DNA of 41,706 bases from Globomyces pollinis-pini (taxonomy: Eukaryota; Chytridiomycota; Chytridiomycetes; Rhizophydiales; Globomycetaceae), in contig MU621240.1 in NCBI GenBank assembly GCA_025399215.1, positions 1-41,706 on the forward strand, in the 5' to 3' direction. The notes beneath the pieces were generated by a model. The model ran no database searches. It worked only from the letters and a program-made list of their open reading frames with translations, and was not told the origin of the DNA. The position numbers and the translations under genes were made by a program. Positions 9,268 to 19,080 of the stretch are shown here, piece after piece; positions within the stretch are counted from its first letter, which is position 1; each line of letters starts with the position of its first letter.

Positions 9268-10354
9268 TCAAGATTTATTCCGCGACTGTAAAATTCTACA
9301 ATTGTACATCAAATTTTGATTACCACACATCATTAGATGACCAATTAAAAAACGATCCAAAACTATCGGATACAAACTGTTAAATTCGTTGCCCGTCAAT
9401 ACGCCTTTAAAATACTCCAATATCAACATACGTATATCGATCGGTAATTGAGATAGTAGAACTAATGATCGACTGATACTAAGCAATGTTATATAATCAG
9501 ATTGGATTTGTTTTTCGCGAGTGATGTTACGTACTAATAATTGATAGATATCAATTAGGTTTGTAGAATCGAATCTATTACCAAATATTTGTAATTCTGT
9601 AATGTTTAGATTTGATTTTAATGATTCATGCATATGCATAATTCCTATGGTAAATCTAATCTAATCATACCTATCTAATAAAACGTATTCGAATACGTAC
9701 CTATATATTGAATACATCAGATACAATACCTAAAAAAATCAATCAACCTAAATACAAACCTTGACTTTTGATGGCATTATTATTCAAATGAATTTTCCTC
9801 AACGTTTTATTTAACGTTAATGCACTTGCAATAGACATTGCACCTTGATCACCTATTGCATTGGACGATAATTCCAATTCAATCAGGTTTGTATTCTCAA
9901 TCAATCCTTTGGAAATATAATGAATACCTTTTGCACCTATATGATTAGATCCTAATTTTAATTCTTGAATTGTTAGATGTTGTAATAAATGTCCAATTGA
10001 TTTCGCGCCTAATTCTCCAATTCGATTATGGGTTAGATCAATTGATATAAGATTTATATGTGATTGAATACCAGTACATAGTATTTCTATAGCTGAATGA
10101 TCGAGTTCCATACGACAAAAATCAAGTCGTGTAAGGTTTTTGATAATTGGAATTGTTTCGGAAATCAATTTCATTTGTTGTAAAGAAGGTCTTGAATATG
10201 AAAAATCCAAGATGGTTAGGTATGGATTGTTGATCATTACGCGTTGTATATCCATTGGGATAGTTTCATTTGTTAGATTAATGATCATTTCAGTTGGATT
10301 TTTATTTTGGGATTTTTTTGGAATTGTATCGTCTGAAGTGATTCTTAATTGCAT
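9268..10354 (-). CDS. RNI-like leucine-rich-repeat protein, 323 aa
   Basis: Exons 10354-9760 and 9644-9268 are separated by a composite 115-nt intron. About seven leucine-rich repeats of the ribonuclease-inhibitor type are visible (LTRLDFCRMELDHSAIEIL; LISIDLTHNRIGELGAKSI; LIELELSSNAIGDQGAMSI; LRKIHLNNNAIKSQG). The splice joins KSQ and GIMHMHES inside one repeat, which makes a regular unit and supports the model. The C-terminal 80 residues are helical without repeats. Such proteins act as protein-interaction scaffolds (RanGAP, NLR-like); no catalytic or NACHT domain is present. The gene converges on VPS36, 191 bp apart, and diverges from the RUS gene. Confidence 0.85.
9645..9759 (-). other. 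Composite intron made of four head-to-tail intron-like units
   Basis: Read 5'-3' on the minus strand, this intron is tiled without gaps by segments that each start GT and end AG: 9759-9730 (30 nt), 9729-9701 (29 nt), 9700-9671 (30 nt) and 9670-9645 (26 nt). An extra AG|GT also occurs 12 nt into the first unit. The unit lengths equal the ordinary intron length in this window. Removing all 115 nt restores the LRR frame. Unit starts are GTTTGT, GTATTG, GTACGT and GTATGA. Confidence 0.7.
9683..9698. repeat. 16-bp perfect palindrome acgtattcgaatacgt
   Basis: This perfect inverted repeat without spacer lies in the third unit of the composite LRR intron. It could fold as a hairpin in RNA or be a chance result of AT-rich sequence. 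It separates the candidate donor of that unit from its acceptor, so a hairpin would shorten the effective intron. Confidence 0.6.
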
Positions 10355-12389: not shown

Positions 12390-14560
12390 ATGGACGACAA
12401 ACAATCCAGTCGAGTGTCCCTAATAACCCAGCAAATCCAGAATCCAAACAATACCAATTTGAATAACAGGAACAGTACAATAATAAATACTTTAAGTACA
12501 ACTAATACAAATGACTGCAATCCAACTGACTCTATTATTACTCCTACTCTCAGTAATCCTCCAAATCCTTATCAGCCTTATTCGATACCTACAAACGCTT
12601 CAAACATACTAATAGGTTCACATTCTAAAGACTCATTATTATCCATATTCCTCAATGGTAATCATAAAGTTATATCTGTTGATGCTGGTAATTGGCCACT
12701 ATTGGATGGTTTTATAGTCTCAACTCATCAAAGTAATTGGAATGGTTATTGTCAAGTAGAATGCTCTTTTAAAGTACTCTTATATTGTTTGACGTTAGTG
12801 CAAAGCAGTAATTGGGGTCTTGGAAAAAATACTATATTCAGAGGTTATTCAATTGACTCAATCTGAAATCACCATTGATGGGAAACGAAAGTTCCCGTTC
12901 TCCTTTAATTTTGGTTCTAAAGCATTACCACCAACCTTTACATTTGATCCTTCAGGTTCGTTTATATCTATGTAAATTGATTAATAGGTAATAATATGAT
13001 ATTAAAACCGCTCTGTAGATTGGCATCAGGGTGTTAAAACAGGCATATCTTGGAAAGTAGTTGGGTTTATGGGTCAACAAATCGCTCCTGGCCCTCTTTC
13101 CAAAGACGTACTTCGAATCATATCGCCCGCTTCAACTAGTTTTCTGGTTGGTTATAATGTATCATTTTACAGATCTTAAATTATAGTATACGGAAAAGAC
13201 CCTAGATATCTACAAAGAATTAAAACTTCCACAAATTGTACATTCAAAAAGATCGTTATTGCCTAACCCTTTTACAAAATCACAAGATCTGTCTTTAACA
13301 GCTAAACTATCACCACCTTTAATGTTGCAACCCAACCCTCATATAGTGATAAATATTAATGTAGACCATTTATTGCCAACTCATAGAATTGAACATGTAG
13401 TTGTTCACTTTTGTCAAAAACTTACCTTTCAACTTGTTTCTGGACAACAATTTAATTTTAAAAAGAAAGAAACTGTTTATGAACAGCAACCTCAAGATTT
13501 ATTTGACGAATCACACCCACAGCAGCAATCATTGGAAATTGTATTAGAAAAAGAACAATTATTCAATACTCCCTCTTCTTCGTTTGCCAGAGTTTATCCT
13601 TTAGATTGGGATTTCGAACCATCAAGTAATTATAAAATGGGAAAATATGTCCCTTCAACTATTTATGCTGAACTATCTCATGGTAGTTTGGGTTTTGAAG
13701 CCACTTACTACTTTATTGTAACATTGAGTATAGTAGATCAGGCAACATACAAGTATAAAGAAATCAAAACAAACATACCATTTTTAGTCAGTGGACCAAG
13801 TTTATTAGATGATATTCCAGATATTCCACATGGAGTATCAAACAATCCTGATATACGAATACTAACACGAGGAACATTTTTACCAATTCTCTCATCTCTG
13901 TTGGAAGATATCGGTCATTCGATCTCTGGTTTAGAAAATCTGCTGTTAGAATGGCGGACCTTTAGATATCAGGTAATATACTCAGTGTTCTAAACCTAGG
14001 CTAATGAACGAGAGCATATGGTTACAGAATCTTCTGATCATGCCATATTTTTAATTGAAATTCTTGACTCTTATTCATTTCAATTACATCATATCAGTAA
14101 AAACTTATTGAATAATACCCATACTTCTCGAATTCATTGGCCAACTTCTACCATACCCTTTAATATGTTTCTATTAGAATTGGAGTTATTGATTCGAGCT
14201 TGTCCTCATGCTCCAGAATATTCATCACTTCGGGAAACTTCGACATTGGATACTTCCATGCAAGGTTCGAGTGATTCGCACAACCGAATACCTCTATCCG
14301 AACCTTTAGTGAATAGACTGATCATAGAGTCCTTGACATTTATGAAAACTGCACATCAACTAATAATGGCATGGATTCAACCAGCTAATGCAAATGTTCA
14401 TGATTTAAGCCAACACATTGAACAGATGACCTTCAAAGTGCATGATTTACTAGTAGATGTGGTTCAAGGAGGTGATACTGATACAGGCGTGAATGGAAAA
14501 CGCGATCATGAATTAGATGAAGCCATTAGATTATCGTTAATGGATCTAGAAAGTTTATAA
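12390..14560 (+). CDS. Arrestin-fold protein with C-terminal ubiquitin-interacting motif, 675 aa
   Basis: Exons are 12390-12773, 12799-12955, 13019-13158, 13187-13972 and 14000-14560. Introns are 25, 63 (composite), 28 and 27 nt. An Asn/Thr-rich disordered leader (about 75 residues) precedes a beta-rich arrestin N-like domain (HKVISVDAGNWPLLDGFIVS; KRKFPFSFNFGSKALPPTF) and a second beta domain (LTAKLSPPLMLQPNPHIVIN; FEATYYFIVTLSIV). A helical region follows. The last 16 residues (ELDEAIRLSLMDLESL) match the UIM pattern with the Ala-x-x-x-Ser core. Fungal alpha-arrestins are adaptors that link Rsp5-type ligases to membrane cargo. No PPxY motif is seen here, so ubiquitin binding through the UIM may replace it; that is inference. 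The arrestin assignment rests on pattern, not on a profile search. Confidence 0.75.
12956..13018 (+). other. Composite intron made of two intron-like units
   Basis: The 63-nt intron consists of 12956-12987 (32 nt, GTTCGT..TTAATAG) and 12988-13018 (31 nt, GTAATA..TGTAG) joined at AG|GT. Removing both restores the frame (FDPS then DWHQGVKTG). Removing only the first leaves a stop codon a few codons downstream. Each half has an A-rich branch-like sequence before its AG. Confidence 0.7.
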
Positions 14561-18343: not shown

Positions 18344-19080
18344 ATGGCCCCACCTAAAGTAATTTGGTAAACATTGATCTCTCTAGGTATGAAGAACCAT
18401 GGTTAATTATAGGTAAGCTGTGGATTTGTTTATTGGCTAGGTCCGTAAAATTGCCATTCTTGGTAGCAGAGCAGTAGGAAAATCGTCCGTTACTGTTCAA
18501 GTATTCATTCGTTGCTTTAATTCTAGTTTGTTGAAAATCATTTTGCAGAAACTTATTATCCAGTATAGCCAATAATGAATTTACATATAGACAATTGAAA
18601 ATATGTTTACCAAAATTGTAAAGTACAAAGGGGAAGAGTTTGCAGTTGAAATTATGGATACAGCTGGTCAAGATGAATTTTCAATTCTGAATTCAAAACA
18701 TGCTATTGGTATACATGGATATGTTTTGATTTATTCAATTGCTTCCAGACAGTCATTTGAAATGTGTGGAATATTAAGAGATAAAATCTTGAATTTTACA
18801 GGAATGGATTGGGTACCATGTGTATTAGTTGGTAAATGAACATGTTATGTCAATTAATCATTTAGCAAACAAAGTGGATTTACACGTACAGAGACAGGTG
18901 ACCACACAAGAAGGTGAAGCTCAGGCTAAAGAATGGAATTGCTCCTTTATTGAAACAAGTGCCAAACATAATCAAAACATTTCACGTCTATTTGAGTACA
19001 TGCTTGGAGAAATTGAAAAAGTTCGTGGTGAAGGAGGTGCTTCGGCAGAAAAAAAGTCGAATGGATGTATTATTTTTTAG
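18344..19080 (+). CDS. RHB1: RHEB small GTPase, 188 aa, five exons
   Basis: Exons are 18344-18358, 18441-18500, 18527-18562, 18591-18831 and 18866-19080. The intron after codon 5 is composite (82 nt); the others are 26, 28 and 34 nt. The motifs fall at the same residue numbers as in human RHEB: G1 GSRAVGKS at 13-20 with the RHEB-type Arg at 15, the switch I Thr at 38 (PTIEN), and DTAGQ at 60-64. NKVD and SAK follow, and the C-terminal CIIF is a prenylation box. RHEB activates TORC1 at endolysosomal membranes and is switched off by the TSC complex. The residue before NKVD is Ala where Gly is usual, which follows from the splice site chosen. The CaaX ends in Phe, so farnesyl and geranylgeranyl are both possible. 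Confidence 0.96.
18359..18440 (+). other. Composite intron made of three intron-like units
   Basis: The first RHEB intron is exactly three consecutive GT..AG units: 18359-18386 (28 nt, GTAATT..CTCTAG), 18387-18412 (26 nt, GTATGA..TTATAG) and 18413-18440 (28 nt, GTAAGC..GGCTAG). Each start fits the GTAnnn donor seen elsewhere in the window, and each length is the local norm. Removing all 82 nt joins MAPPK to VRKIAILG in frame. Keeping unit 1 or unit 2 gives an immediate stop, and keeping unit 3 shifts the frame. Confidence 0.8.

Follow-up and report, generated by a model that had tools for sequence, protein, structure and literature searches.

In the chytrid Globomyces pollinis-pini, the first intron of the RHEB gene consists of three complete minimal introns joined head to tail with no exon between them. 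The gene lies on the forward strand of contig MU621240.1 (assembly GCA_025399215.1), positions 1 to 41,706 of which form the window, the whole stretch of DNA analysed here. The triplet is a member of a genome-wide class of arrays of 2 to 12 units, which an initial sequence-only reading of this DNA had missed. It is quite probable, judging from the signals and statistics below, that this 82-nucleotide (nt) intron is an intron array, i.e., three minimal U2-type introns with AG/GT joins in place of exons (zero-length exons), whose units would mostly be removed singly and in any order. Stepwise removal is the likely, though unproven, mechanism of the arrays.

Anatomy of the RHEB intron

The RHEB gene contains the following features (window coordinates):

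18344-18358, plus strand: exon 1, 15 nt, ATG..AAA, encoding MAPPK
18359-18386, plus strand: array unit 1, 28 nt, GTAATT..CTAG, branch-like TTGAT at 18374-18378, core score 8.9
18387-18412, plus strand: array unit 2, 26 nt, GTATGA..ATAG, branch-like TTAAT at 18403-18407, core score 9.7
18413-18440, plus strand: array unit 3, 28 nt, GTAAGC..CTAG, branch-like TTTAT at 18429-18433, core score 8.5
18441-18500, plus strand: exon 2, starting GTCCGT (VRKIAILG, P-loop)
18501-18526, plus strand: ordinary single intron, 26 nt
18563-18590, plus strand: ordinary single intron, 28 nt
18832-18865, plus strand: ordinary single intron, 34 nt
18866-19080, plus strand: last exon, including the stop codon

Intron 1 (18359-18440) is tiled exactly by GT..AG units of 28, 26 and 28 nt, and at both joins (18386/18387 and 18412/18413) an acceptor AG abuts a donor GT inside the intron, as the sequence-only reading had described. 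Introns of this genome mostly start with GTA, carry a branch-like YTRAY and mostly end with TAG. Each RHEB unit has its own GT, branch-like 5-mer and AG, a GTA/GTT donor and the length of a minimal U2 intron; the 5-mer of unit 3, TTTAT, is off YTRAY at one position. The unit scores of 8.9, 9.7 and 8.5 compare with 8.7 for the median short intron of the genome, which bears out the earlier statement that each unit alone looks like a normal intron.

Tiling by itself can arise by chance. Among 20,000 dinucleotide shuffles of the intron, with the first and last three bases held fixed, 109 could be tiled by bare GT..AG units of 22-38 nt, and exon 2, used as a negative control, contains abutting GT..AG pieces of 26 and 29 nt that score only -1.2 and -1.7. 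A bare GT..AG tiling is thus weak evidence, and it is the branch and donor signals that carry the case for RHEB: every unit scored at least 4.5 in 4 of the 20,000 shuffles, and at least 8.5, as observed, in none. Chance tiling of an ordinary 82-nt intron is accordingly very improbable for RHEB, and for the class it is refuted by the shuffles, fixed-gap controls and whole-genome patterns given below, in which the arrays exceed the shuffle, gap and spacing expectations.

Excision of the full 82 nt gives MAPPKVRKIAILG..., the sole stop-free combination; the other seven, in which 0, 1 or 2 units are excised, all hit stops. The deposited 188-aa Globomyces pollinis-pini RHEB protein (P0001) is identical to the full-removal product. 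An error in the gene model, part of the 82 nt being in truth exon, might be suspected from a first coding exon of just 15 nt and from the RHEB protein model of Kappamyces sp. JEL0829 (P0003), which has nine extra residues, VQWQTAHSK (27 nt), at exactly this place. Such an error is scarcely credible, however: each partial retention hits a stop, MAPPKVRKIAILG matches MPSPPKVRRVAVLG, MPAPPKVRKVAVLG and MPAPPKLRKIAILG, and a gene finder blind to the intron interior chooses the same 82 nt. The extra Kappamyces residues could be a 27-nt GT..AG intron retained in that gene model. Fungi are known to have composite introns made of consecutive U2 units, the stwintrons, whose outer intron has a splice element interrupted by an inner one. 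A nested arrangement of this kind is extremely unlikely in RHEB, where no unit interrupts the donor, branch or acceptor of another and the units are complete and abutting.

Arrays across the genome

A self-written, self-training gene finder was applied to the window and to 19 of 20 fetched 10-kb stretches, 231.7 kb in total; the twentieth (L018, G000:C17:10001-20000), with 9,730 of 10,000 bases N, was omitted from all counts. Whole-genome counts refer to the 18.55-Mb assembly. The first finder predicted 508 introns in genes scoring >15, and their lengths are sharply split: 471 are 23-40 nt and one is 19 nt, none is 41-56 nt, and 36 form a scattered longer class. In a blind test, the long introns (41-200 nt) were selected without inspecting the interior; 9 of the 36 tile exactly with units scoring at least 4.5, compared with 0.67 expected from interior shuffles, and 1 of the 36 is reducible only as nested. 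An array-aware finder, which permitted units of 21-42 nt (observed segments are about 23-38 nt), identified 19 arrays among 543 predicted introns: 13 double, 3 triple and 3 quadruple. With the AG-to-GT spacing forced to 1, 2, 3, 4 or 6 nt, it returned 1, 1, 1, 3 and 0 doubles, respectively, and none longer.

Gap and pattern counts gave the same picture. Counted on both strands, pairs of units scoring at least 6.5 reach a peak of 21 at gap 0; gaps 1 to 40 give 0 to 9 pairs each, and five shuffles give 1-3. The number of abutting units cannot be trusted on its own because an exon AG often precedes donors and inflates the two-unit chains at gap 0; 53 chains with a one-base overlap (gap -1, threshold 5.5) probably reflect the higher base rate of T after AG. 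Genome-wide, runs of three TAGGTA joins number 99 at unit spacing and one at wider spacing, the latter being an array too; for two joins the counts are 345 and 43. The reversed-pattern controls at unit and wider spacing are 8 and 2 for triples; for doubles they are 214 and 193. Since the reversed word occurs frequently at either spacing, reliance is placed on the spacing contrast. A branch-TAG/GTA-branch pattern occurs 100 times versus 13 with NNN inserted, the reversed controls being 42 and 35. Most weight was placed on gene-model arrays, arrays of at least three units and homologue alignments.

Further loci were selected by pattern, and 56 of 60 yielded 62 arrays (gene models scoring >2). 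Together with the 19 above they make 81 arrays: 24 of two units, 17 of three, 19 of four, 6 of five, 6 of six, 5 of seven, and one each of 8, 9, 10 and 12, the longest array being 365 nt. The inner splice letters and unit numbers of the 62 are biased since these were selected for TAGGTA joins. At L008 5671-5785 the finders disagree between four units and two units plus an exon; the totals count two.

Ten of the 81 arrays, in six conserved genes, were aligned to solved homologues, and all ten junctions fall in gap-free stretches. These are i) the three-unit array of RHEB, just three residues into the alignment; ii) the 10-unit array of PHYHD1, at IFK/QP; iii) arrays of 4, 2 and 3 units in gamma-tubulin, which the finder split into two models and whose unity as a single gene is deduced from the alignments; iv) the 12-unit array of a MARK-like kinase, which splits the Asp codon of the DFG motif; v) arrays of 9, 7 and 5 units in pantothenate kinase, the 7-unit junction lying near where the alignment weakens; and vi) the 8-unit array of ATG3. 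Three arrays each are present in gamma-tubulin (L016 G000:C15:10001-20000), pantothenate kinase (L087 G000:C451:1800-5000) and one predicted gene of L013 (9266-9552). With several arrays in single genes, arrays may cluster in some genes.

The window itself contains two more arrays:

12956-13018, plus strand: second array, two units of 32 and 31 nt
9645-9759, minus strand: third array, four units of 30, 29, 30 and 26 nt, in a predicted leucine-rich-repeat gene

No Pfam family was assigned to the gene at 12390-14557 of the window.

Removal of the units

In the proposed mechanism, the spliceosome would use intron definition to pair splice sites about 24-40 nt apart, mostly excising the units one at a time. 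With unit 1 out, the next donor would sit at the exon; with an inner unit out, an intact AG/GT would remain. The order of removal therefore need not matter. The sequence-only reading had noted that serial removal would regenerate a donor at the exon edge, and this holds for the AG/GT joins, for an acceptor as well as a donor. Skipping of whole units would lead to the same mRNA, so that growth of an array would be nearly neutral for splicing and a broken unit harmful.

Several properties of the arrays agree with units that act as introns. Unit lengths match those of single introns (81 arrays, Kolmogorov-Smirnov p=0.68), and so do the core scores (47 units of 19 arrays, p=0.28). Half-broken arrays, expected were the inner signals irrelevant, are nearly missing. 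The array-aware models place 51 long introns in the 231.7 kb, of which 16 are fully tiled, 31 untiled and 4 partial; three of the four partial introns are arrays in which a single unit narrowly misses the threshold, and the fourth is a 419-nt prediction of doubtful quality. When the introns without full tiling are shuffled, 1.4 partial ones are expected. Between the members of 35 recently duplicated pairs, 31 of 175 branch 5-mer sites differ, versus 187 of 594 other inner sites (p=0.0003). Array units with a length divisible by three (3n) lack an in-frame stop in 14 of 88 cases, whereas shuffles give 29.3 and the two wrong phases 32 and 27 (Fisher p=0.003); non-3n units show no deficit of stop-free cases (95/217 versus 89.4). 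In-frame stops in 3n units are the trace to be expected if selection acted against the retention of single units. Stop-free cases are scarce among single 3n introns also (48/201 versus ~68 in shuffles; wrong phases, 65 and 72), as may be expected if in-frame stops catch retained introns, a gene-finder bias being possible.

The array could be real as sequence and the 82 nt still be removed normally in one step, from outer donor to outer acceptor, the inner sites being duplication relics or simply tolerated. One-step removal of this length is possible in principle because untiled introns of such length are predicted: 32 of the 543 predicted introns are long and untiled (some surely gene-finder errors), including an 82-nt intron in ESF1 and an 84-nt intron in a stomatin-like gene. 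In view of these predictions, the premise considered in the sequence-only reading, a spliceosome limited to about 24-40 nt for which stepwise removal may be the only route, is not supported. The deposited RHEB protein fits removal of the whole 82 nt, and some arrays are young duplicates. In addition, lariat reads from human introns of <1,000 nt favour conventional over recursive splicing (PMC10156609, in the portion available). One-step removal is nevertheless a rather unlikely account. Full signals persist in the inner units even of arrays, such as that of RHEB, whose members resemble each other no more than random units do; partly decayed arrays hardly occur, although complete ones may be preferred by the finder; duplicate units share a conserved branch 5-mer; 3n units carry in-frame stops; and no excess end-to-end pairing exists to bring the outer sites together.

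The last point comes from an attempt to explain one-step removal by RNA structure. A hairpin joining the array ends was looked for in 41 arrays, and neither an excess of end-to-end pairing (p=0.88) nor a lower folding energy (p=0.16) was found relative to permuted unit order; structure-aided removal of this type was rejected.

A number of observations weigh against stepwise removal, or against the arrays on which it is based. The set of 51 long introns was produced by the array-aware finder, with its possible preference for complete arrays. Acceptance of units only above a score threshold may have exaggerated the branch-site constraint. In the stop test the gene finder could bias the terminal units, and the inner 3n units alone give a weaker result (8/43 versus 13.1; phase contrast p=0.28). 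The reversed control for the double pattern is high, 214 versus 345. The predictions for this genome include untiled introns of 70-190 nt; the 82-nt one lies inside the RRM domain of ESF1 (domain by Pfam), and the alignment of the 84-nt one is loose near the junction. The human lariat data belong here as well. Finally, a T-to-A composition gradient along the arrays, described next, is unexplained by the stepwise model.

Arrays of at least four units run from T-rich first units to A-rich last units (e.g., L073 180-544, L085 697-943 and L082 246-455). The mean change in T-A skew is -0.177 (40 arrays), a value as low as which was reached in 0 of 2,000 unit-order permutations, and -0.205 for inner units alone (21 arrays). 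Long untiled introns lean the opposite way (23 introns, p=0.04). End-to-end pairing does not explain the gradient. In long untiled introns, +5 G donors are not significantly commoner than in single introns (7/23 versus 88/483). The ESF1 protein gave no match when compared with solved structures.

Origin of arrays and relation to known systems

Arrays probably grow by exact tandem duplication of an intron. Among 234 adjacent unit pairs, 37 lie above the random 99th percentile of likeness, versus 2.3 expected, and three pairs are identical. Identity of at least 80% is found in 37 of 619 pairs within arrays, compared with 30 of 19,745 pairs sampled across arrays. Near-identical neighbours and the local nature of the similarity point to tandem duplication in place; in some arrays, such as that of PHYHD1 with its identical units 2 and 3, the units are recognisably similar, as they would be in a minisatellite within one long intron. 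RHEB is a case on the other side, its units being no more alike than random (14th-51st percentile of random unit pairs), and duplication is invisible there. The exon ends in AG before 35 of 81 arrays versus 149 of 483 single introns (p=0.03), an excess that fits duplication between short AG repeats. The AG that is common before the donor and also ends the intron would perhaps aid such duplication. On this evidence we lean towards a genome in which introns multiply on the spot to form tandem arrays of complete ~28-nt units, each array being one that as many as a dozen independent splicing events, in no fixed order, would remove from a single position. Their expansion would be almost free, since gains of whole units would be silent and broken units purged.

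Extrapolation from the 19 arrays in 231.7 kb suggests perhaps 1,500 arrays per genome. They sit in conserved genes such as gamma-tubulin and across the DFG motif of a kinase, and from one spot of a message the cell may have to excise several introns in succession. The arrays offer a natural test of intron definition and of the shortest distance usable by the spliceosome, and they bear on intron gain, probably by exact tandem duplication beside an existing intron. They also matter for annotation: gene models can hide arrays as single longer introns, and the deposited RHEB protein shows no trace of three units.

Recursive splicing has been studied mainly for very long introns, in which the AG/GU join is described as a zero-nucleotide recursive splice site (PMC13149111, in the portion available). 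The chytrid arrays resemble the ratchet points of Drosophila and vertebrates in having AG/GU without an intervening nucleotide, so that removal of one segment regenerates a donor at the exon (same portion). The same logic appears here at a very small intron scale. Introns with ratchet points are typically >10 kb, whereas the RHEB intron is 82 nt and the longest array 365 nt. The chytrid segments are about 23-38 nt, occur up to 12 in a row and are spread over many genes, in a fungal genome that is compact. For yeast, recursive splicing that is uncoupled from transcription is credited to Lopez and Seraphin 2000 in the available part of PMC5126111.

Ascomycete stwintrons are likewise composites of U2 units and are removed by consecutive reactions (PMC7138796, PMC12403724, available portions). 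In them the outer intron has its donor, branch or acceptor interrupted by an inner intron, and the order is thereby fixed (PMC7138796, PMC12403724, PMC5639578, as far as the available text goes). The chytrid units are complete and abutting, and the order need not matter, unlike in stwintrons. In the Lipomyces starkeyi stwintron, according to the accessible part of its description, the donors abut, whereas in the chytrid arrays an acceptor abuts a donor. The available portion of PMC9024468 describes no run of abutting introns. The sequence-only reading had held such runs to be undescribed. A partial search of the stwintron and recursive-splicing literature (titles and abstract openings) likewise found no arrays of abutting minimal introns, without establishing novelty in print, but the local AG/GT design is known from recursive splicing.

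Introners, which are dispersed and transposon-derived, are a further case of intron units multiplying in a genome (PMC9860276, available portion). The array units differ from them in that similarity is mainly local, with at least 80% identity in just 30 of the 19,745 sampled pairs given above. The budding-yeast intron in the recursive splicing study mentioned earlier was reportedly an engineered one; the chytrid arrangement, by contrast, is natural and widespread.
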